A stretch of 64,000 nt of DNA from Spiroplasma chinense (GTDB lineage Bacteria > Bacillota_I > Bacilli_A > Mycoplasmatales > Mycoplasmataceae): NCBI RefSeq assembly GCF_008086545.1, contig NZ_CP043026.1, positions 310,001 through 374,000 on the forward strand, in the 5' to 3' direction. Each line of letters starts with the position of its first letter. Position 1 is the first letter of the stretch. Position numbers and translations under genes: made by a program. Under the pieces are notes generated by a model that was not told the origin of the DNA, did no database searches, and saw only the letters and a list, made by a program, of their open reading frames with translations. Positions 13,269 through 27,098 of the stretch are shown piece by piece.

Positions 13269-13293
13269 AAAAAAACCGCGCAACGGTTTTTTT
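13269..13293. terminator. Bidirectional terminator between the RpiR gene and fba copy 1
   Basis: A 10-bp stem (AAAAAAACCG with CGGTTTTTTT) with a 5-nt loop lies between the two convergent genes and touches the fba stop codon. Confidence 0.88.
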
Positions 13294-14137
13294 ATGCCTT
13301 GTTATTTGATCTAAAAGCTATAATTTTTTTAATAGCTTCTTCTTTTACAAAATTAATTGCATTTCTTCCGTATTGTCTTGCATCAAATCCTGAAGGATTT
13401 TTTTCAAATCAATCTTTAAGACCTTGTGCACAAGCAATTTTTAAATCTGTTCCAATATTGATTTTTGTAATTCCTAAATCAATAGCTTTTTGTAAATCTT
13501 CTAAAGGAACTTGGCTTGAACCGTGAAGTACTAGAGGTGTTTCGATTTTACTTCTAATTTCTTCAATTAAATCAAATTGTAATTTGATTTCTCCTTTAAA
13601 TAATCCGTGACTTGTACCAACAGCAATTGCTAGAGCATCTATTTGAGTTAATTTATCAAATTCAATGGCTTCGTTTACGTCAGTATAACCGTTGCTTTTT
13701 GAATCTCTATCATCTTCTTTTCCACCAACGTGACCGATTTCTGATTCAACTTCAACACCTTTTGCTTTTGCATATGCTACTATTTCTTGTGTTTCTTTTA
13801 CATTTTCATCAAATGGTTTAAGTGATGAATCTAACATTACACTTGAAAATCCACAATCAATTGCTCTTTTAATTAATTCAATATCAAAACCGTGATCTCA
13901 ATGAAGAATAATTGGAACGTTTGATTTTTCTGTTGCATCCATTGCAAAAGCAAAAACATTATCAATTCCCATGTATTTTGCAGCACTTTCAGTAACCATT
14001 AAAATAACGGGTGATTTTTGTTCTTCTGCAGCTTCAATTATTCCTTTCATCATTTCTAAATTATCAAAGTTAAATGCAGGAACCGCATACTTACCATTTC
14101 TAGCTTTTATTAATTCTTCTTTCAAACTTGCTTTCAT
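13292..14137 (-). CDS. fba: Class II fructose/tagatose-bisphosphate aldolase, copy 1
   Basis: A 281-residue zinc aldolase. The metal ligands lie in IILHWDHGF, SEIGHVGG and LVLHGSSQ, and NIGTDLK is the phosphate-binding end. It cleaves fructose-1,6-bisphosphate; class II aldolases of this family (GatY/KbaY) also cleave tagatose-1,6-bisphosphate. I count three residue differences from copy 2 at 23178. Similarity stops at the ribosome site on one side and at the stop codon on the other. This copy is divergent from a DeoR/LacR regulator, with TATCAT sites in the gap. AGGAGA precedes the ATG. Confidence 0.93.
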
Positions 14138-14205
14138 TTTTCTTTTTCTCCTATAGTAATATTTTACAAGATTTGATACAAAAAGTTCAAAATTTTCTAA
14201 AAAAA

Positions 14206-14228
14206 GATAAAAAAATATCATTTTTTTT
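14206..14228. promoter_or_regulatory. TATCAT-type operator candidate between fba copy 1 and the DeoR gene
   Basis: GATA-AAAAAA-TATC forms a small dyad followed by TATCATTTTTTTT. The same TATCATTTTTT block appears upstream of lacA (15050-15060) and of the ABC operon (17061-17080). Its place in a divergent gap fits control of both genes by the adjacent DeoR regulator. Confidence 0.6.
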
Positions 14229-14271: not shown

Positions 14272-15042
14272 ATGGAAAAATTAAAAAGAGGAGACAGAAT
14301 TAAGATGTATTTAGCCTATTTAAGTCTAAATTCACCAATATCTATTAAAAAATTTCTTAACTTTGCAGTAGAGAATAAAATCCCAGAAATTACATCAAGA
14401 AGAGATGTAAAATTACTGGAAAGTTTAAATTATATAGATCTTGAAATGGGATTAATTAAGTTAAATGATTCTAAGGAATATGAAGCTACTAGAGATGAAA
14501 AACACTCTGCAAATAGAGAAGAAAAGGCAAAAATTGCTTTAACTGCAGTTTCAATGATAAAAGAAAAAGAATTATTTGTTGGAGCTGGAACTACTTGTGA
14601 AATGTTTGTTAAATCTATAAATACTCCAATAAAGCTTTTATATACTAATGGTTTTGAAGTTGCAAGAGTTGCAAATTTAAACGTAAATATTAATAGAGTA
14701 GTCTTAATTGGGGGAAAATTAAGACCACAATCAAGCGCTATGTGTGGACCTATTGCAAATATGGTTGTAGAAACTTTAAAATTTTCACAATCTTTTATAA
14801 CAGTGACAAACATGGATGCAGAATTTAACCTATGTAATAATAATGAAGATGAAGCATATCTTACAAATAAAGTAATATCTCGTTCAGGAGAAGTTGTTTG
14901 TTTAATGGATCATACAAAATTTAATCAAAATTTTTATGGAAATATTATTTCCAATGTGTCTTCGATAGACCAACTTGTAATTGACAAGGAAATTGAAGGT
15001 CCAGAGTTTGAAGAACTAAAAACTAAAACAAATGTAAAATGA
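14272..15042 (+). CDS. DeoR-family regulator (LacR-like)
   Basis: A 256-residue regulator. The N-terminal winged helix (about 1-60) has the recognition region PEITSRRDVKLLESLNYI, and the C-terminal sugar-phosphate sensor has ELFVGAGTTCEMFV, LLYTNGFEVARVA and VVLIGGKLRPQSS. It is divergent from fba copy 1 and directly upstream of lacA-lacB, so it is the likely repressor of the tagatose pathway, as LacR is in lactococci and staphylococci; the effector there is tagatose-6-phosphate. GAGGTG lies six bases before the ATG. TATCAT sites occur on both sides of it. Confidence 0.88.
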   Translation: MEKLKRGDRIKMYLAYLSLNSPISIKKFLNFAVENKIPEITSRRDVKLLESLNYIDLEMGLIKLNDSKEYEATRDEKHSANREEKAKIALTAVSMIKEKELFVGAGTTCEMFVKSINTPIKLLYTNGFEVARVANLNVNINRVVLIGGKLRPQSSAMCGPIANMVVETLKFSQSFITVTNMDAEFNLCNNNEDEAYLTNKVISRSGEVVCLMDHTKFNQNFYGNIISNVSSIDQLVIDKEIEGPEFEELKTKTNVK

Positions 15043-15080
15043 TAATTTTTTATCATTTTTTTTATTTTTCTATCATTTGT
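15040..15080 (+). promoter_or_regulatory. TATCAT operator candidate and leader of lacA
   Basis: TGATAA-TTTT-TTATCA (15040-15055) is a dyad starting in the DeoR stop codon. It runs into TATCATTTTTTTT, and another TATCATT lies at 15071-15077. It sits about 30-70 bp before lacA and matches the half-sites at 14216 and 17061. Confidence 0.65.
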
Positions 15081-15107
15081 AGTAAAATAGAAATATGGAG
15101 GTATGCA

Positions 15108-15542
15108 ATGGAAAAAATAGTAATCAGTTACGCAAATAAAATTGAAAAAGCGTATATAGAACACATTAAAAATAATGTGAAAAACAAAAACTTTGAATTA
15201 ATTTATGAAGAAAACTCAGGAAGTGTAGAAGAATATCTTGAACTTGTAAAAAAAATTCAAAACAAAGAAATAGGAAGAGTTATTAGTATTGAAGAGTTTG
15301 GTACTTTACCATTTATGGTTATGGCCAAAAACAAAGGGATTGTGGTTGCACAAATTTCAGATCACCATTCTTCAAGAATGACAATCCAACACAACAATTC
15401 AAACGTGTTATCTTTAGGTTATAAAATAATGGCCAAAGAAAACATGGTAGATATTATAGAAACATATTTAGGGGCTCATTTTGAAGCTGGAAGACATATG
15501 GTAAGAATTAATATGTTAGAAAATATTTTGGAGGGTGAATAA
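15108..15542 (+). CDS. lacA: Galactose-6-phosphate isomerase subunit LacA (RpiB/LacAB family)
   Basis: A 144-residue cytoplasmic protein that with LacB would interconvert galactose-6-phosphate and tagatose-6-phosphate. Family segments are ISIEEFGTLPFMVMAKNKGIVVAQISDHHSSRMT, split here over residues 60-95, and HFEAGRHMVRINMLENIL at the C-terminus. It lacks the complete active-site set seen in LacB, as is usual for this partner. GGAGG precedes the ATG. lacB starts one base after its stop. Allose-6-phosphate isomerisation is a known activity of RpiB relatives and is an alternative. Confidence 0.87.
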   Translation: MEKIVISYANKIEKAYIEHIKNNVKNKNFELIYEENSGSVEEYLELVKKIQNKEIGRVISIEEFGTLPFMVMAKNKGIVVAQISDHHSSRMTIQHNNSNVLSLGYKIMAKENMVDIIETYLGAHFEAGRHMVRINMLENILEGE

Positions 15543-15543
15543 A

Positions 15544-16047
15544 ATGAAAATCGCAATTGGATGTGACCATATCGTCACAGATATTAAAGATAAAGTTATT
15601 GAAATGCTTAAGCGAGATGGAATAGAAGTTCTTGACTGCGGTACTTATGATTTTGAAAGAACACATTACCCAATTTACGGACACAAAGTGGCTGTAAATG
15701 TGGTTGAAAAAAATGTAGATTTTGGAATTGTTATTTGCGGTACAGGAGTAGGTATTTCAAATGGAGCACAAAAAACAAAAGGAGCTAGAGTACTTCTGGC
15801 AAAAGATGTTTTAACTGTTGAAGATGCAAGAAAAAACTATGATGCAAATATTATAGGATTTGGTGGTCGTATAGTTGGTCTTGGATTGATGTATGAAATG
15901 ATAGAAACTTTTATAAACACTAAGTATGAAGGTAAAAATGATCAATTAATCAATCAAATTGACAGCTTAATTAAAAATAAAAACTATAGTGATTCTATTT
16001 TCGATGAAGAAAATAAAAAATGAGATAGTGGATTTTACGATGAGTAA
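15544..16047 (+). CDS. lacB: Galactose-6-phosphate isomerase subunit LacB
   Basis: A 167-residue RpiB-type isomerase. It has GCDHIVTDIKDKVI at the N-terminus, the phosphate and active-site segment GIVICGTGVGISNGAQKTKGAR (residues about 60-82), and NYDANIIGFGGRIVG. Length and the long C-terminal helix fit LacB (about 171 residues) rather than RpiB (about 149). A GTG at 15535 is in frame, but GGAGGGTG serves the ATG at 15544. The last residues are read through a TGA Trp codon to TAA at 16045, overlapping the ROK kinase start by 8 bp. Confidence 0.9.
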
Positions 16048-16999
16048 TCAGGCAAAATATTGTTTTGCTGTTGATTTAGGAGGAACTACTGCCAAGTGTG
16101 CAATTATTAAAGATGAAATAATTGAAGAAAGATTTATAGTAGAAACACAAATTGGCCAAGTTCTTGAAAATATAAAGAGTGTATTTGACGAAAAAATTGT
16201 CAAATACAATATTGAAGATAAAGATTTAGAATTTGTAGCAATTACAATTTGCGGACTTATAGACTATGAAAATGGTATTTCTATATGAACCGGTAATCTA
16301 GAGTGAAGTAATTTTGAGGTAGTAAAGTTTCTAAAAGAGCTATTCCATAATGAAAACGTATTTATTTTAAACGATTCTAAAGCAGCTACCTATGGAGAAT
16401 ATGTAAAAGGTTTAAATAAAGAAAAACCTAATATGTTGCTCTATACATTAGGAACTGGTATTGGGGGTGGAGTTATCCTTAATAGTGAATTATATTTTGG
16501 GGGTAACACAAAATTAGCAAGTGAACCTGGCCATTCGGGCGGTTTTCAAAATAAATACCAATGTAACTGTGGGTTAATAGGGTGTATAGAAGGATTGAGT
16601 AGTGCAACGGGTATTGAAAAAGAAATCAATAAAAACCATGAATACTACGAAAATAAATTAGGATTGAACAAGGATAAATATACCATCAAAGATATTGCTG
16701 AATTATTTTACAATGGTGATAAAAAAACAGTTGAACTATTTGAGGAATGTTTTTTACCATTGGTAAAACACATGGCTGTCTCTATTCATTTAATGGATTT
16801 TGATATGGTTGTAATTGGTGGAGGTCCAAGTGCTATGGGGGATCATCTACTTAATTTACTTAAAAAACAATTAAAAAACTACTTGATGCCACCATTCTAT
16901 GAAAAGCTAGATTTAAGAATAGCTAAACTTAGAAATGATGCAGGCTTATGAGGGGTTTATCATTTTGCAAAATTAAAATTAGATGAGTTAAAAAAATAA
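16040..16999 (+). CDS. ROK-family sugar kinase
   Basis: A 319-residue kinase. The N-terminal phosphate loop is DLGGTTAKCAI (residues about 11-21), the ROK motif ASEPGHSGG lies near 158, the zinc motif CNCGLIGCIEG near 175-185, and the GTGIGGG adenosine loop near 138. ROK enzymes phosphorylate glucose, fructose, mannose, allose or N-acetyl sugars, usually at C6. Being co-transcribed with lacAB and upstream of a sugar ABC importer, it probably makes the hexose-6-phosphate that LacAB uses (galactose or allose); the substrate is inferred. Confidence 0.88.
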
Positions 17000-17004
17000 T
17001 AACT

Positions 17005-17030
17005 AAAAACCTAGTAATATCTAGGTTTTT
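17005..17030 (+). terminator. Terminator of the lacAB-ROK operon
   Basis: A perfect 10-bp stem (AAAAACCTAG with CTAGGTTTTT), a 6-nt loop and further Ts. Confidence 0.9.
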
Positions 17031-17048
17031 TTATATGCAAAATAAAAA

Positions 17049-17173
17049 ATGATTATTTTTTATCATTTTTTATCATTTTTTGTAAAAAGTTATTGCATTT
17101 TTTCTTTTTTTTTGTACACTTAAGTTGTAGGTAGAATTATTTCCAATTATCATAATTAATGATAGAAATAATT
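17049..17173 (+). promoter_or_regulatory. Operator cluster upstream of the sugar ABC operon
   Basis: TATCATTTTT occurs twice in tandem (17061-17070, 17071-17080), one helical turn apart. Further down, TATCAT (17148-17153) and ATGATA (17159-17164) form a dyad with a 5-bp centre, enclosed by longer arms AATTATTTC (17135-17143) and GAAATAATT (17165-17173). A possible -35 TTGCAT is at 17094-17099. The same half-site lies in the other promoters of this island, which points to one DeoR regulator. Confidence 0.65.
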
Positions 17174-17198
17174 TGCCAGAAAGAGAGGGGGAGGGAAC

Positions 17199-18710
17199 TT
17201 GAATGATGAAAGTATAAAGTTGAATCAAAAACCAATCTTAAAATTAGAAAATATTTATAAAAGTTTTGGTCCGGTTCAGGCGCTAAGGGGTGTAAGTCTT
17301 GAAGCGATAAGCGGTAAGTGTACTGCTATAGTAGGTGAAAATGGTGCTGGTAAATCTACATTAATGAATATTGTATCTGGTGTTATTAGAAAAACATCGG
17401 GTGAAATGTACTTTGATGAAAAGAAATATGAGCCTAAAAATATTAAATCAGCTGAAAAAACAGGTATTGCAATAATTCACCAAGAATTAGTGACAGTTAA
17501 TGAAATGACAGTTATTGATAACATTTTTTTAGGAAATGAAATACGTAATTCATTTGGAAAAATCAATTATAAAGAACAGTTTAAAATAATTACTAGAATT
17601 TTTAAGGAGTTACAAATTTCGATCGATCCCAAAAAGAAAATGGGTTATTACTCAGTGGCTCAACAACAAATTATAGAAATTGCAAAAACTGTAATTAGAA
17701 ATGCAAAAGTGATTATTATGGATGAGCCTACATCATCGCTTTCTGATAAAGAAACACAAATGTTGTTTAGGTTAGTAAAACAACTTAAAGAACAAGGAAA
17801 AGCGGTTTTATATATTTCTCATAGATTAGAAGAAATACCTGTAATTTGTGAGTATATAACCATCATAAGAGATGGTGGTTTCATAGGAAACTATGAGGTA
17901 GATAAAATTTCTGAGGAAGAAATTATAGCTAAAATGGTTGGTAGAGAGATCACTCAAAGATTTCCTACAAAAGTACAAGGAAAAGACAACGAGGTTTTAT
18001 TGAGTGTAAATCAAATTTCTAGTGATATATTAAAAAATATATCCTTCAACATAAAAAAAGGAGAAATACTTGGTTTTGCAGGATTGGTTGGAGCAAAAAG
18101 AACAGAATTGTTTAAAACTTTAATTGGTGCAATGAGTTGTAGTTCGAAAGAAATTTATTGAAAAGATAAAAAAGCAACCTTTAAATCACCGTATGAAGCT
18201 ATTAAAAAAGGATTATTTTACGTAACGGAAGACAGAAAAGAAGATGGTTTGATTTTGGATGAAACTATTAGAAATAACATTTCTGTTTCATCCTTCAAAT
18301 ATATGCAAAACAAATATTTGAAGTTTATCTCTAAGAAAACTCAAAATGAAATGTGCAACTATTTCATGAACGTTACAAAAATAAAAGCACCCAATTTTTC
18401 CTATAAAATTAATCAACTTTCAGGAGGAAATCAACAAAAAGTATTAATTAGTAAAGCTATTTGCGCTAAACCGAAAATAATAATTTTTGATGAACCAACT
18501 AGAGGTGTGGATATTGGAGCAAGAAGAGAAATTTATGATTTAATTTCAGAATTAAAAGCACAAGGAATTGGTATTGTTATTATCTCAAGTGAACTTCCAG
18601 AAATCATAGGACTCTGCGATAGAGTCGTGGTAATGAAAGAAGGAAGAATCTCTAAGGAATTGGAAGCCAAAGACTTAAGTCAAGAAAATATTATTAAGTA
18701 TGCAATATAG
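17199..18710 (+). CDS. Ribose/galactose-type sugar ABC transporter, double ATPase (RbsA/MglA-like)
   Basis: A 503-residue cytoplasmic ATPase with two ABC domains, as in carbohydrate uptake family 2. Domain 1 has Walker A GENGAGKST (about 48-56) and Walker B VIIMDEPTSSLS; its signature region reads YYSVAQQQIIEIAK. Domain 2 has the family's degenerate Walker A (AGLVGAKRTE) and a good signature QLSGGNQQKV with IIFDEPTRGVDIGA. The start is TTG at 17199, behind a strong purine-rich ribosome site; no ATG or GTG fits. It is the first gene of an ATPase-permease-binding protein operon for a monosaccharide. Confidence 0.93.
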
Positions 18711-18721
18711 AAGGGGTACAT

Positions 18722-20479
18722 ATGAAAGCTAATTTAGAAAAATTTGAAACTGATTATTTCCAAATACTAAAAGATCAGTTAGAGAGCAAATTTAATCAAG
18801 ATATAGAATATGTAAAATCAAAAGAACAAGCTTTTGAGGAAAATAATTTTGATAAAATTTATACTCTATCTTCTATAAAAGATTCGAATATTAATAATTT
18901 AAAATTAAAAATAAAAAACCTAAATGATGAACTTGAAAAAGAAAAAGCATTTAATGAGTTGCTAAAATTAGATGGTCAGATTACCGATCAACAATTAAAA
19001 GAAAAAAACGAATACCTGGAAAAAGAATTTAACAATAAACAGGGAAAAATAATTGAAAATCTTAATGAAAAAATTAAAATGTATGAAATTAAAATGGATG
19101 AGATCATTAAGAATAAAACTTTAAAACTTAAGAAGAAGAATGAGAATAAAAAGAATAAAACTAAATTATTAGAAGATAAAATAAACGAGAAAAAACAAGT
19201 AAGTGTAAAAAGAATTGAAAATAAACAAAATTTATTATTAGAACTTTCAAACAAACTTAACGATAAAAAAATTCAAAAAATTCAAAAAAATAAAATGTAT
19301 AAAGAATGAAACAAGGTTCAAGAAGAATATGATTCAAAAAAAATAGGAAATATATTTTATGAAAAGAATAAAAAAGAATTTGAACCCAAATTAATGGAAG
19401 TTAAAACTAAAATAGATGAAAAAACAACTAATTTTGAGTTACAAAAGTACAAAGCTCAAATGAAATTTGCCAATCTATTTGGAGCACAGAATAAACAAAA
19501 CACTAAAAATTTCCTACTAAATGTATTTAATGAATCAAAATTATTAATACTTATTTTGGGAATTGCTATATTTGCGGGAATTTCAAATAACAACTTTTTT
19601 ACACAGAGAACTTGAATTAATATATTAACCAATAATTTAGATTTACTAATGATAGCATTCGGAATGACACTAATTATTTTAACAGGTGGAATTGACTTAT
19701 CTGTAGGAAGTATTCTTGCCTTTGCAGGATCTTGCATGATTAAGTTTTTGGAAAAAGGTGTAGACCCTTGAATAGCAATGTTAGCTTGTGTTGTTATATC
19801 TGTTGCGTTTGGGGTATTATCAGGATTTCTAATTAGTTATGTAAAATTGCAACCCTTTATTGTAACTCTTGTATTGATGTTGACTTTAAGAGGAGGAGCT
19901 AGTCTTTTGTTGGAATCAAAAGCAACACTTCTACCAGCAGATACTTTACAATTTGTAACAAGATTAAAATTTTGAATACTACCATTTAGTTTCTGATTTG
20001 TATTGTGTATTTTCATAGGTCTTCTAATTATTATGAGGGGCTATAAATATGGGAGATATATTTATGCAGTGGGTGGAAACATTAAAGCTGCATACCTATC
20101 TGGAATTAGATCAAAACTAATTGTGATGTCTGTATATATGTTCTCAAATGCATTGGTTGCTATGGGAACAATAATATATGTAAGTAAATTAAGTTCTATT
20201 TCACCTACCAGTGGAAACCAAATTGAACTAGACGCAATTGCTTGTGTTGCTCTTGGAGGAACAAGTTTAATTGGTGGAAAAGGTGGAGTAGGTAGAACCT
20301 TGGTTGGATGATTTGTTATAAGTGTCTTACAAACTTCTATGAACATGGTAGGTTTTAATACTTACTATCAAATGATTGTAAAAGGAAGTGTTATTTTGAT
20401 AGCTGTTTTATCTGATAAACAAATTAATATTTCTAAAAAAATATCAAAAAAACTTAAAAATCTTATTTATAAAATTTAA
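18722..20479 (+). CDS. Sugar ABC permease (RbsC-like) with N-terminal coiled-coil extension
   Basis: 585 residues, against about 320 for RbsC. Residues 1 to about 255 are a highly charged Lys/Glu/Asn/Leu helix without signal or membrane segment, almost certainly a cytoplasmic coiled coil. From about 265 on it is a normal permease, with GMTLIILTGGIDLSVGSILA, QPFIVTLVLMLTLRGGA, YAVGGNIKAAYLSGI and ACVALGGTSLIGGKGG. The frame is continuous through TGA Trp codons, so this is a real fusion rather than two genes; there is no ribosome site near the junction. It starts 12 nt after the ATPase gene. Confidence 0.92.
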
Positions 20480-20512
20480 TAGATTTAATTATCTAAAGGA
20501 GAAAGAAAAGAT

Positions 20513-21610
20513 ATGAAAAAAATGTTAAGTATATTGTCAACATTGACACTAGTAAGTAGTACTGTTACTTCAGTTGTAGCTTGTGGAGATAAGAAAGATG
20601 TTATTTATTTAATTCTTCCAGAAAATCCAAACACTCAATGACAAAATTTTATTGATACAGCAACAAATTATCTAAAAAAAGATGATACTTTAAATTCAAA
20701 ATATAAAGTTAGATGAGCAAGTTCAGAACAAAGAGCTGATAAAGAATTAGAAAACACAAGAGCTGCGGTTGATGGTGGAGCAAAAGCAATTATTATTGGT
20801 CAAAACAATCAAAATGAAAGAGAAGCTGCTAAATATGTTAATGAAAATAATGTTCCTCTGATTGGAGTAAATATTCCGTTTTCTGCAGATGCAGCGGACA
20901 ATGAAAAACCAAATTTCCAAGTTATTCAAGAATACGATAAAGGTTCAAAAACTCTTGGAGATGAAGTTGTAAAAGTTTTAAAAGCTGGTAAACCTGATAA
21001 AGAAAAATACGGATTATATGAAATGTGAGGAACTCCTGAAATGAATGGGGTTCCAGAAAGACATAACGGGTTTAAAAACGCAGGTAACTGAGATTGAATC
21101 GGAACTAGTGACCTTCCTGCAGGATTTAATGGAGAAGGAATGGTAGGTAACTGAGTTGATAACATGGCTTATGAAAAAACTAAAACTCAACTTGGATCTG
21201 GAGATGCGTTAAGTAAAGTTGATGTAGTTTATGCTCACAATGATGGAATGGCTCGTGCCGCTAGACAAGCAATCGAAGACGTTCCTGGTGGTAGAGAAGC
21301 TTTAACTACAACATTCAATGATAAAGGTGAAATTGAAAAATTAGGTATTTTAGTTGTAGGTTATGACTATGATTCAATTAGTCAACAAATGATTGCAGAT
21401 TGAGGAAAAAACGCAGACAAAGATAGCACTTATAAAAACTTATTTGCAACAATGGAAATGAGTGCAACAGAAATGGCAGAAAAAGCTATGGCAAAAGCAG
21501 TACAAGAAATTGAAAACCAAAATGCTAATAAAGGTAAAATGACTGTTGAACCATTAACAATCGCTTTACATATGGCAGATCATAAATTTGCAACAAAAGA
21601 TGAAGAATAA
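20513..21610 (+). CDS. Sugar-binding lipoprotein of the ABC importer
   Basis: 365 residues. A signal peptide ends in the lipobox VVAC with Cys24, so the protein is anchored outside the membrane. The body is a periplasmic-binding-protein fold of the ribose/galactose type, seen in VIYLILPENPNTQWQNF, AIIIGQNNQNEREAAKYV, NVPLIGVN, VDVVYAHNDGMARAARQAIED and GILVVGYDY. It delivers a monosaccharide to the RbsA/RbsC-like pair upstream. The galactose-binding MglB branch also has a YAHNDxMA segment, which supports an aldohexose, but I cannot settle the sugar. AAAGGAGAAA precedes the ATG. Confidence 0.92.
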
Positions 21611-21651: not shown

Positions 21652-21710
21652 CTCCTATGTATAGTTATAATGATAAAAAAACATTATCATTATAATGAAA
21701 AGCATAGGAG
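21652..21710 (+). promoter_or_regulatory. Hairpin at the IS 5' end that pairs with the transposase ribosome site
   Basis: CTCCTATG (21652-21659) is complementary to CATAGGAG (21703-21710), which contains the transposase ribosome-binding site. Inside lies a perfect 11-bp stem, TTATAATGATA with TATCATTATAA. RNA entering from outside would fold and hide the ribosome site, while RNA starting within the element would lack the left arm. Confidence 0.7.
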
Positions 21711-21718
21711 GTTTTTTT

Positions 21719-22066
21719 ATGGCAAACAAAAAAGGTAATAAATCAAATATTTTAACCCCAGAACAAAGAAAAAGACTTGTAAATGATCATTTTAAAAAAG
21801 ATTTAAGTTGAAGAGAATTGTCAATCAAATATAATGTTTCATATTCCGCTGCAAGGCAAACTTGTATTAGATTTGAAAACGAGGGAGAAGCTAGTTTTGA
21901 AGTTAAGAGTGGTAACAGTTCTAATCACACAAATATTAGAGTTAATAGTGTAGATCCCAGAGATAAACAAATTGCACAATTACTTAAAAGAAATAAGGAA
22001 CTTGAAATGGAGAACGAAATCATAAAAAAGTTCAAGGAATTTACAAAGAATCAAAAGACAAAGTAA
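21719..22066 (+). CDS. IS3-family OrfA (DNA-binding subunit)
   Basis: 115 residues. A helix-turn-helix (about 15-50, with LSWRELSIKYNVSYSAARQTCIRF) is followed by a C-terminal helix with heptad leucines (IAQLLKRNKELEMENEIIKKFKEF), typical of OrfA. The slippery heptamer A-AAA-AAG at 22024-22030 lies in the phase needed for -1 frameshifting into OrfB. AGGAGG precedes the ATG. Confidence 0.88.
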
Positions 22067-22938
22067 CGTTAAATTCCTATTATGTTTTTATCGATGAAAA
22101 CAGGAAATATTATCCTGTGTATTTGATGTGCAGAATTTTTAAAATTACAGAATCAAGTTATTATAGATGAATAAAACGCGGCAAAAAAATATACAAAGTT
22201 AAGTTCAATTGAACACTCGCAAAAAAGATTTTAAAAATTTATAGAAAAAACATGGGAATGTATGGGGCTCCAAGAATTACTATTGATTTATTCAATAAAT
22301 ATGGAGTTAGAGCTTCGGAGAAGAAAGTTTGAAGATATATGTCAATTCTTTCAATAAAATCTTTTGTAAGAAAGAAACGTTCTTACAGTGTTCCTAAAGA
22401 AAAGAAAAACACAAAAAGCGGAATACCAAATATAGTTGACAGAAAATGAGGTTTATATGGTCCCAATGAATTATTTGTAACTGATGTGAGTTACATACCA
22501 TATGGAAATCACAAATTTGCTTATTTAAGTGTCATAAAAGATGCTTATAGCGGAATGATTGTTGCATGACACATTTCACTAAAAAATGACCTTATGATTT
22601 GAAAAAATACATTAAAAAAATTTGAAAAGGTTAGACCTAAAACTCAAATTATTATGCATTCTGATAATGGGTTTCAATACACATCATTATTTATGGCTGA
22701 ATATTCAAAAAATAACAACATCATACAATCATGCTCTAGAGCAGGAAACTCTTTAGATAACGCTATGTGTGAAACGTTCTTTTCTTCTTTGAAAACAGAA
22801 AGACTTCACCATATTAAATTAAATAATCATTATGAAGTTTATGATCAAATAGATAATTATATTAATTATTATAATAATTATAGAATAACAATTAAACACA
22901 GAGCTACTCCAACTTCAATTTGGAATACATATAATTAA
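22030..22938 (+). CDS. IS3-family OrfB (DDE transposase), expressed as an OrfAB frameshift fusion
   Basis: About 300 residues in the -1 frame relative to OrfA. It has the HTH_21-like segment MYGAPRITIDLFNKYG and an rve integrase core. The acidic triad is in VTDVSYI (D), HSDNGFQYT (D) and DNAMCETFFSSLKTE (E), all intact, followed by NYYNNYR typical of the family. I see no start codon with a ribosome site near its 5' end, so I take it to be made only as the OrfAB fusion through A-AAA-AAG at 22024-22030. Six or more TGA Trp codons interrupt it under the standard code. Confidence 0.88.
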
Positions 22939-23177: not shown

Positions 23178-24023
23178 TTATGCTTTGTTATTTGATCTAA
23201 AAGCTATAATTTTTTTAATAGCCTCTTCTTTTACAAAATTAATTGCATTTCTTCCGTATTGTCTTGCATCAAATCCTAAAGGATTTTTTTCAAATCAATC
23301 TTTAAGTCCTTGCGCACAAGCTATTTTTAAATCCGTTCCAATATTGATTTTTGTAATTCCTAAATCAATAGCTTTTTGTAAATCTTCTAAAGGAACTTGG
23401 CTTGAACCGTGAAGTACTAGAGGTGTTTCGATTTTACTTCTAATTTCTTCAATTAAATCAAATTGTAATTTGATTTCTCCTTTAAATAATCCGTGACTTG
23501 TACCAACAGCAATTGCTAGAGCATCTATTTGAGTTAATTTATCAAATTCAATGGCTTCGTTTACATCAGTATAACCGTTGCTTTTTGAATCTCTATCATC
23601 TTCTTTTCCACCAACGTGACCGATTTCTGATTCAACTTCCACACCTTTTGCTTTTGCATATGCTACTATTTCTTGTGTTTCTTTTACATTTTCATCAAAT
23701 GGTTTAAGTGATGAATCTAACATTACACTTGAAAATCCACAATCAATTGCTCTTTTAATTAATTTAATATCAAAACCGTGATCTCAATGAAGAATAATTG
23801 GAACGTTTGATTTTTCTGTTGCATCCATTGCAAAAGCAATAACATTATCAATCCCCATGTATTTTGCAGCACTTTCAGTAACCATTAAAATAACTGGTGA
23901 TTTTTGTTCTTCTGCAGCTTCAATTATTCCTTTCATCATTTCTAAATTATCAAAGTTAAATGCAGGAACCGCATACTTACCATTTCTAGCTTTTATTAAT
24001 TCTTCTTTCAAACTTGCTTTCAT
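23178..24023 (-). CDS. fba: Class II fructose/tagatose-bisphosphate aldolase, copy 2
   Basis: 281 residues, nearly identical to copy 1 at 13292. The differences I see are Leu for Ser in NPLGFDAR, Lys for Glu in FDIKLIKRAI, and Ile for Phe in DNVIAFAM; zinc ligands and substrate loops are the same. Most nucleotide differences are silent. Upstream sequence is unrelated to that of copy 1. It has its own TATAAT (complement of 24045-24050) and AAGGAG ribosome site, and it is divergent from a different DeoR regulator. With the PfkB kinase and PTS downstream of that regulator, it may serve as the tagatose- or fructose-bisphosphate aldolase of this unit. Confidence 0.93.
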
Positions 24024-24883: not shown

Positions 24884-24917
24884 ATTGTGAAAACAATTTG
24901 CGTAGAAGGAGATTTTG

Positions 24918-27098
24918 ATGGGTAAAATTACAAAACAAGAAATGCTTGTTGAAAACATACTTGCCAAAATAGGTGGACCACAAAATATTAAAGATGTCTA
25001 CCATTGTGCAACACGTATGAGAATTACATTATTTGACGAAAGTATTGTAAAACTTAGTGAAGTTAAAACTATTGAAAATACTCGTGGAGCTTTATTTGCT
25101 AATGGTGAATTACAAATAATCATTGGTGCTGAAGTTTCAAGTATTACTCAATTACTTAAAACAAAATTAAAAAATGAAGAACCTAATTTTGAAATTAAAT
25201 CTGTATTTGAAGGTAAAAAACCTCCAATGCATAAAAGATTTTTAAAGGCGGTTTCAGCAATTTTTGGACCATTGATTCCATTCTTAATTGGTGTGGGATT
25301 AATTATGGCCTTACAACAATTGCTAATTAGATCAAAAGCTGTAAGTGCCATTAGTGATGATGGTGTTATGGGAGTTGATTACAATTTATTTGATTACATC
25401 CTAAATGTAATTGCAGGAACTGGATTCAAAATGATGGGTGCAATTGCAATGTGATCAACAGTTAGATATTTGGGAGGAAAAACACCAACAGCAATTGCAT
25501 TGGCATTGATTATGGTATCTCCTATCATTCCAGAAGCTGGATTGCATTTCTTCTCAATTGGAAATTGAAATATTACTTTAAAACCATTCTATTCTACTAT
25601 ATTAGTGTTTATAGTAATGGGAGTTATTGTGGCATATTCACAAAAAATGTTAGAAAAATATTTACACCCTGTGGCTAACTTCTTGTTAAATCCATTTTTA
25701 ACATTATTAGTTGGTGGGTTAATGGCATTTTTCGTAGCAGGACCATTAATGGGAGTGCTAGAAAACGCTATGTTAGTATCATTTAGTTGATTTATGAATC
25801 TTCCAGTAGGGATTGGTGCAATGATTGTTGGAGCAACATGACAACCATTAGTTGTTTTAGGTGTGCACAACATATTATTCTTTGCAGCAGTTACAGAGTT
25901 AAGTCAAGCAGAACCTGTGCCTTCAATTTTCTTAGCAGCTGCTTTTGCAGCAGCTTGAGCACAAATGGGTGCAACAATTGCTGTTGGACTAAAAAGTAAA
26001 AAAATGATAGATAAATCTGCTGCTTTCTCAGCTGCTTTACCTGGTATTATTTCAGGACCAACTGAATCATGTATTTACGGAGTTAATTTACCAAAAGGAA
26101 AACCATTCTTCACAGGAGTTATCGCTGGAGCAATTGGTGGATGATTAATCGGTATCTTTGGAGTTGATTTAGATAACTTAGCTGGTCTTGGAGGAATAGT
26201 TGGTTTCCTAGCTTATTCAGATGATTTAGTGCCAGCCATCCTAATTGATATGGCTTCACTTGGATTAGGTATTGCTATAACTTATGTATTCTGAGTAGAA
26301 GAAAAATCAGAATTAAGTTTAGCTAAAAAAACTATTAAATTAATGAATAAAGAATTATGTCTAAAAGGAGAAGTTGACTTTAAAGCTCAACAACTTATAA
26401 AATTAATTAAAAAAGTTAACACTAAAAAATTAAATAAAGACATTATTGAAAAAATAGACTTACTTAAATTGGATCTAGATAAGCCAACACAACAACAAAT
26501 AGAATCATATTTAAATAGTGTAAAAGAAGGTCAAAAAGATTCAAAATTGAAAAAGGAAATTATTTTAAGTCTAAAATCTGTTACATCAGATAGACAAAAA
26601 CAAATTAATGAGGTTTATGAAGATTTAACAAAATCAATTTTAGAACTTAAAGAACTTAAAAAAATTACAAGTAAATGTAGTAAAACAATTATTCAAAAAG
26701 CTAATTACGAATATAAATTGAAAAGAATTCAAGAAATTAAAGAAGATAAATTAGCAAAATCATTTAACAAAGCTCAAACATTGTTAGCAAGTAACGTGGT
26801 GGCAAAAAGACAACACGGTCAAGAACTTTTAAAACTTCAAAATTCATTCGAATATAAAGAAGATAAAGTTAAAATGTTAAATGAAAAAAATAATTTAATA
26901 GAAAAAGAATTAAATGTAAACAATGAAGAGTTAGCAAAAGTTACTGAAAAATACTTTAACAAGTACAATGACAAACTGTCAACTCTAGAAAAAGTAACCA
27001 ATGAAGATCTAACAAATTATAGAGATGGGTTATTTAACGATATTCATAATTTACAAATTAAAGAAAAACTTTTAGACCCTAGAATCACTACTGTTTAA
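24918..27098 (+). CDS. PTS EIIBC of the sucrose/beta-glucoside type with coiled-coil tail
   Basis: 726 residues. The N-terminal EIIB has phospho-Cys30 in VYHCATRMRITL, and EIIC (about 105-465) has GPLIPFLIGVGLIMALQQL, GVHNILFFAAVTEL and ISGPTESCIYGVNLP. From about 470 to the end is a soluble Lys/Glu-rich helix of about 255 residues, probably coiled coil, instead of an EIIA domain. EIIA must come from elsewhere. GAAGGAG precedes the ATG at 24918 rather than the in-frame TTG at 24915. It lies upstream of a PfkB kinase and in the fba2/DeoR unit, so its product may be a hexose-6-phosphate on the tagatose or fructose route; no glycosidase is nearby. Confidence 0.87.

Follow-up and report, generated by a model that had tools for sequence, protein, structure and literature searches.

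The rbsC-type gene at 18722..20479 on the plus strand of the window (the whole stretch of 64,000 nucleotides of Spiroplasma chinense DNA analysed here) raises the question why a sugar permease should be preceded, within its own reading frame, by about 255 soluble residues of which 47% are Lys, Glu or Asn. The gene is a single open frame of 585 codons in code 4, with 6 TGA codons read as Trp, and this N-terminal arm is followed by a complete RbsC-type permease at 19508..20476 (+, residues 263-585). The initial annotation had described an unbroken run from a soluble, Lys/Glu/Asn-rich helix into the permease, and this was borne out: the frame is open throughout and 14/14 homologs, from 11 genomes, are full length across the junction, hence the fusion is not an accident of assembly or sequencing. 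Of the in-frame starts, only codon 1 at 18722 follows a purine-rich, ribosome-binding-like sequence (AGAAGGGG); the in-frame ATG and TTG codons within the arm and at the junction are preceded by none. That the arm is encoded separately, or that its junction with the permease is a sequencing error, the outcome named beforehand as fatal to the proposal, can be dismissed with near certainty, because the internal starts are not accompanied by a ribosome-binding-like sequence and 22 intact loci from 19 genomes share the same fusion.

The permease half is of a familiar kind. Its single Pfam match is BPD_transp_2 (residues 299-562, 98.4 bits against a curated cut-off of 26.8), and the double-domain RbsA and the sugar-binding protein encoded next to it agree with membership of the RbsC type. 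The cut-off of the closest NCBIfam model, the ribose-permease equivalog, was not reached (218 bits versus 398), therefore ribose is not claimed as the substrate. The RbsA-type ATPase with two ABC domains is encoded at 17199..18710 (+) and has an ordinary length of 503 amino acids, while the sugar-binding lipoprotein (20513..21610, +) was assigned by Peripla_BP_4 and the lipoprotein signal models. In the operon LacA/LacB-like isomerases and a ROK kinase come first, then the ATPase, the permease and the binding lipoprotein. The rbsA gene lies upstream and the binding lipoprotein gene downstream of rbsC in 14/14 loci of the family, and in the wider set rbsA adjoins rbsC in 21/22 loci.

Some features of the surroundings should be recorded in their own right. 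A DeoR-type regulator, the LacA- and LacB-like isomerases, the ROK kinase and the RbsABC-type importer stand in a row at 14272-21610, and this gene content would possibly fit a tagatose-6-phosphate route that is fed by ABC uptake and a kinase and not by the PTS. A pair of class II aldolase genes (13292-14221 and 23178-24023), almost identical, in the same orientation and 9.9 kb apart from start to start, encloses both the importer operon and an IS3-like element (21695-22938); if the two copies recombined, the operon could be lost. At one locus (L008, genome G043) rbsA, upstream of 1483, lies in two frames, and at another (L054, genome G292) rbsC is split over two frames; either decay or sequencing error would account for both.

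How widely the arm occurs was examined in a family-level set of 60 genomes and in an order-wide search of 298 genomes. When this protein alone was first run against named genomes, no match came up. Full-length arm homologs were found in 11/60 genomes of the family (14 proteins, two of them in this genome), and another 8 intact RbsC-type permeases, spread over two further families of the order, begin with a region about as long. The arm-only model recovered 4/8 of these other-family arms with E values from 9e-12 to 5e-6, whereas among 560 shuffled decoys no E value was better than 49; the remaining 4/8 gave no match to this model and may either be diverged homologs or have arisen independently. 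Altogether the order contains 22 intact arm-bearing loci in 19 genomes, plus the locus in two frames mentioned above (L054), and no intact RbsC-type permease devoid of the arm was seen among its 298 genomes. The remaining matches in the order are permeases of a different layout (a split match with an insertion); three of these from other mollicutes (L055, L056, L060), with frames of 640-651 amino acids, bear long charged N-terminal additions of their own. None of the RbsC genes retrieved from walled Bacilli or from other phyla has the 255-residue arm, and in the rest of the class (395 genomes) nothing was found outside the order except one 51-residue match (E 7.8e-4), which was taken as chance. 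The earlier statement that no such domain is known on RbsC proteins thus holds for the RbsC examined outside the order, but not within it, where all 22 intact permeases possess the arm. Judged from sequence, it is a conserved domain of RbsC, so far seen only in this order of wall-less bacteria.

The arm changes quickly in sequence and very little in its dimensions. Averaged over pairs of the 14 homologs, identity amounts to 26% for the arm against 51% for the permease; in every one of them the arm measures 253-258 amino acids, and the landmarks D44, I87, I129, G209 and L274 are spaced by 43, 40-42, 80-81 and 64-68 residues. In the eight closest pairs the dN/dS of the arm, with dS partly saturated, is about 0.3-0.45 in 7/8 and 0.8 in 1/8. 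Conservation is strongest in the patches 44-54, 121-131 and 206-213. The arm is therefore conserved, keeping a fixed length and fixed landmark spacing while its sequence drifts, under purifying selection.

For the shape of the arm AlphaFold2 was run on two homologs with a shallow alignment, which held two rows for the arm in each run. The model comprises helix 1 (18725..18970, residues 2-83), which holds the conserved patch 44-54, turn 1 (18971..18985, residues 84-88), helix 2 (18986..19336, residues 89-205, predicted as 89-189 and 191-205 with a possible break near 189-190), turn 2 (19337..19348, residues 206-209) and helix 3 (19349..19477, residues 210-252), all on the plus strand, as is the low-confidence linker to TM1 (19466..19507, residues 249-262), which overlaps the end of helix 3. 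The pLDDT lies mostly at 74-88 as far as about residue 180, at 53-69 in the remainder of the arm and below 50 in the linker. In a separate run the homolog of Williamsoniiplasma lucivorax (L065), an arm-bearing member whose permease aligns in structural comparison with HmuU and BtuC, gave helices at 2-81, 86-201 and from 207 onward. The predicted turns coincide with two near-invariant residues, I87 in turn 1 and G209 in turn 2. The arm is predicted to consist of three helices forming an antiparallel hairpin 1 (1-83/89-172) and a short hairpin 2 (173-205/210-252), the latter joined to TM1 by a flexible linker. A helical and charged region, as first described, is what the models and the composition indicate; the single rod of about 250 residues is not, since the models of both homologs fold back at the two conserved turns.

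Signals for this pairing were sought in the alignment. The conservation profiles of helices 1 and 2 mirror each other best when i+j is about 175-178 (77-83 registers, near-turn residues excluded). This lends modest support to a hairpin centred near residue 88 in which patch 44-54 would face 121-131, modest since most of the signal comes from a single pair of conserved patches. Matching by charge complementarity and by hydrophobicity yielded a small signal for hairpin 2, with i+j of 417 scoring best where about 415 was predicted, and no clear one for hairpin 1.

The name of coiled coil, as initially given to the arm, has to be qualified. By a COILS-type score (28-residue window, with a shuffle control that holds whatever the calibration of the weights) 51% of the arm of this protein exceeds P=0.5, a value reached in 63/300 composition-preserving shuffles, whereas for three homologs (L012, L013, L014) only 0-3/300 shuffles reach the homolog's own value. 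The hydrophobic periodicity of the alignment is 3.60-3.68 over the first 196 columns (0/500 shuffles in the best stretch), with no clear periodicity beyond them, and the classical heptad period of 3.5 has almost no power in the stretches with a clear signal. The predicted helical character stands and some homologs surpass their shuffles, but the period is not that of a heptad and the heptad score of the present protein does not rise above its composition; it is safer to speak of a helical-hairpin arm.

In E. coli RbsC the N terminus faces inward, and by this analogy the arm probably lies in the cytoplasm, as had been proposed. At 0.15 nm per residue the modelled hairpins would be rods of about 12 nm (hairpin 1) and 5 nm (hairpin 2). 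In such a model residues 1, ~172 and ~244 would meet near the membrane, with the rod of ~12 nm pointing one way and that of ~5 nm the other, therefore an arm lying along or oblique to the membrane appears more likely than one directed straight down.

What the arm might do has to be weighed from these properties. We favour, with a probability of about 0.4, a mechanical function in which the arm braces or clusters importers by self-association. The stoichiometry RbsAC2B has been modelled for B. subtilis (PMC11466899); with two permease subunits an RbsC-type importer would display two arms, and these could pair with each other or with the arms of neighbouring importers, a pairing that we infer only. 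Paired arms would brace the permease homodimer and draw importers together into clusters in the wall-less cell's membrane, while sugar translocation itself would be unchanged. A geometric role is preferred because constant length over a changing sequence is what one would expect where geometry counts. Against bracing, a drifting surface also fits a sensor acting by charge, the conserved patches 44-54, 121-131 and 206-213 could be a partner site, and the confidence of the model is low past residue 170. Still, we favour a structural role over osmotic or ionic regulation and over docking of a soluble partner.

Osmotic, ionic or crowding regulation comes next after bracing, as a tentative possibility. 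Wall-less cells meet osmotic stress directly, and both the Lys/Glu/Asn content of the arm and the predicted antiparallel helical hairpin on a transporter are in line with such a function, for which the osmosensing domains of ProP, BetP and OpuA set the precedent of domains added to importers (PMC10710835). The operon, however, looks sugar-catabolic rather than osmoprotective, the arm is about 255 residues long, and AT-rich genomes commonly have highly charged helices. About as tentative is the idea that the arm serves as a docking site, not for MreB but for some soluble or peripheral partner (a glycolytic enzyme, another coiled-coil protein or the ROK kinase), and would thereby channel the sugar or place the importer: the patches 44-54/121-131 and the turns might offer a binding site and a kinase gene is present in the same operon, but most of the arm surface drifts fast, as the 26% identity indicates.

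The arm is not the only addition of its kind in this genome. Long Pfam-free regions scoring as coiled coil were also recognised on a NupP-type permease (L003), a PTS EIIC (L104), PTS IIABC proteins (L108, L109, L111), a PotC-type permease (L118), a MalF-type permease (L121) and the PTS IIBC permease at 24915-27098 of the window, whose C-terminal helical addition of about 265 amino acids is matched in 17/60 genomes of the family. Profile comparison revealed no homology of the RbsC arm with this C-terminal addition, nor with the N-terminal additions of the PTS EIIC and the MalF-type permease. It is conceivable, if rather speculative, that wall-less bacteria independently added long cytoplasmic helical rods to unrelated importers (RbsC, NupP, MalF- and PotC-type ABC, several PTS), and that together these rods form a membrane-associated scaffold organising nutrient import without wall or MreB. 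A general pattern over importer families is a lead only, coming from within this genome.

These additions also bear on the proposal that the arm packs on RbsA and helps the ATPase to couple to, or assemble with, the permease. The adjacency of the two genes in nearly all loci and the predicted position of the arm on the ATPase side speak for it; a role tied only to RbsA is nevertheless disfavoured and unlikely, because PTS permeases, which work without an ATPase, bear similar additions, though these may serve other ends, and because RbsA itself is of ordinary length. The tethering of the importer to MreB filaments, put forward at the outset in the general form of a link to the cytoskeleton, fails as a general role and is very improbable: this genome has seven strong MreB matches, but true MreB is absent from 8 arm-bearing genomes outside the family, where nothing but DnaK-type frames of about 520-640 amino acids matched the MreB model (E 1e-16 to 1e-23), and in 4 of those 8 the arms are demonstrably homologous.

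Mollicute families are known for gene loss, and an uncharacterised domain of fixed length kept on a sugar importer across them is probably useful to the cell. Should the arm brace or cluster importers, it would show how wall-less cells organise their membrane; should it serve regulation, sugar uptake would have a control point that has so far gone unrecognised. With similar additions on unrelated importers of the same genome, a general principle could be put to the test in a single series of experiments.

No Pfam family matched more than one of the 14 arms (best E 0.0033, taken as chance), no solved structure related to the arm by sequence was found, and no description of it was found among open-licence papers. 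In structural comparison the modelled hairpin aligns with rods of two antiparallel helices, among them YscO and the iSH2 domain of p85, at Z ~9, which means a common shape only, for they have no sequence relation to the arm and this Z is below the level where matches of long helices exceed a common arrangement. The permeases of the RbsC/AraH/XylH type (BPD_transp_2, type II importer fold) share with the present protein the permease half, the RbsA and binding-protein gene order and the HmuU/BtuC-like fold, but those examined outside the order do not carry the 255-residue arm. In SepJ of filamentous cyanobacteria a permease domain is likewise fused to a coiled-coil domain; it is a septal protein, however, whose coil is predicted to cross the membrane into the periplasm (PMC12096826), whereas the arm precedes TM1 of an ABC permease encoded in an importer operon. 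Compared with the domains of ProP, BetP and OpuA, the arm is N-terminal and much longer; like them it would be a cytoplasmic, helical and charged addition to a bacterial importer, which in ProP is an antiparallel coiled coil (PMC10710835).
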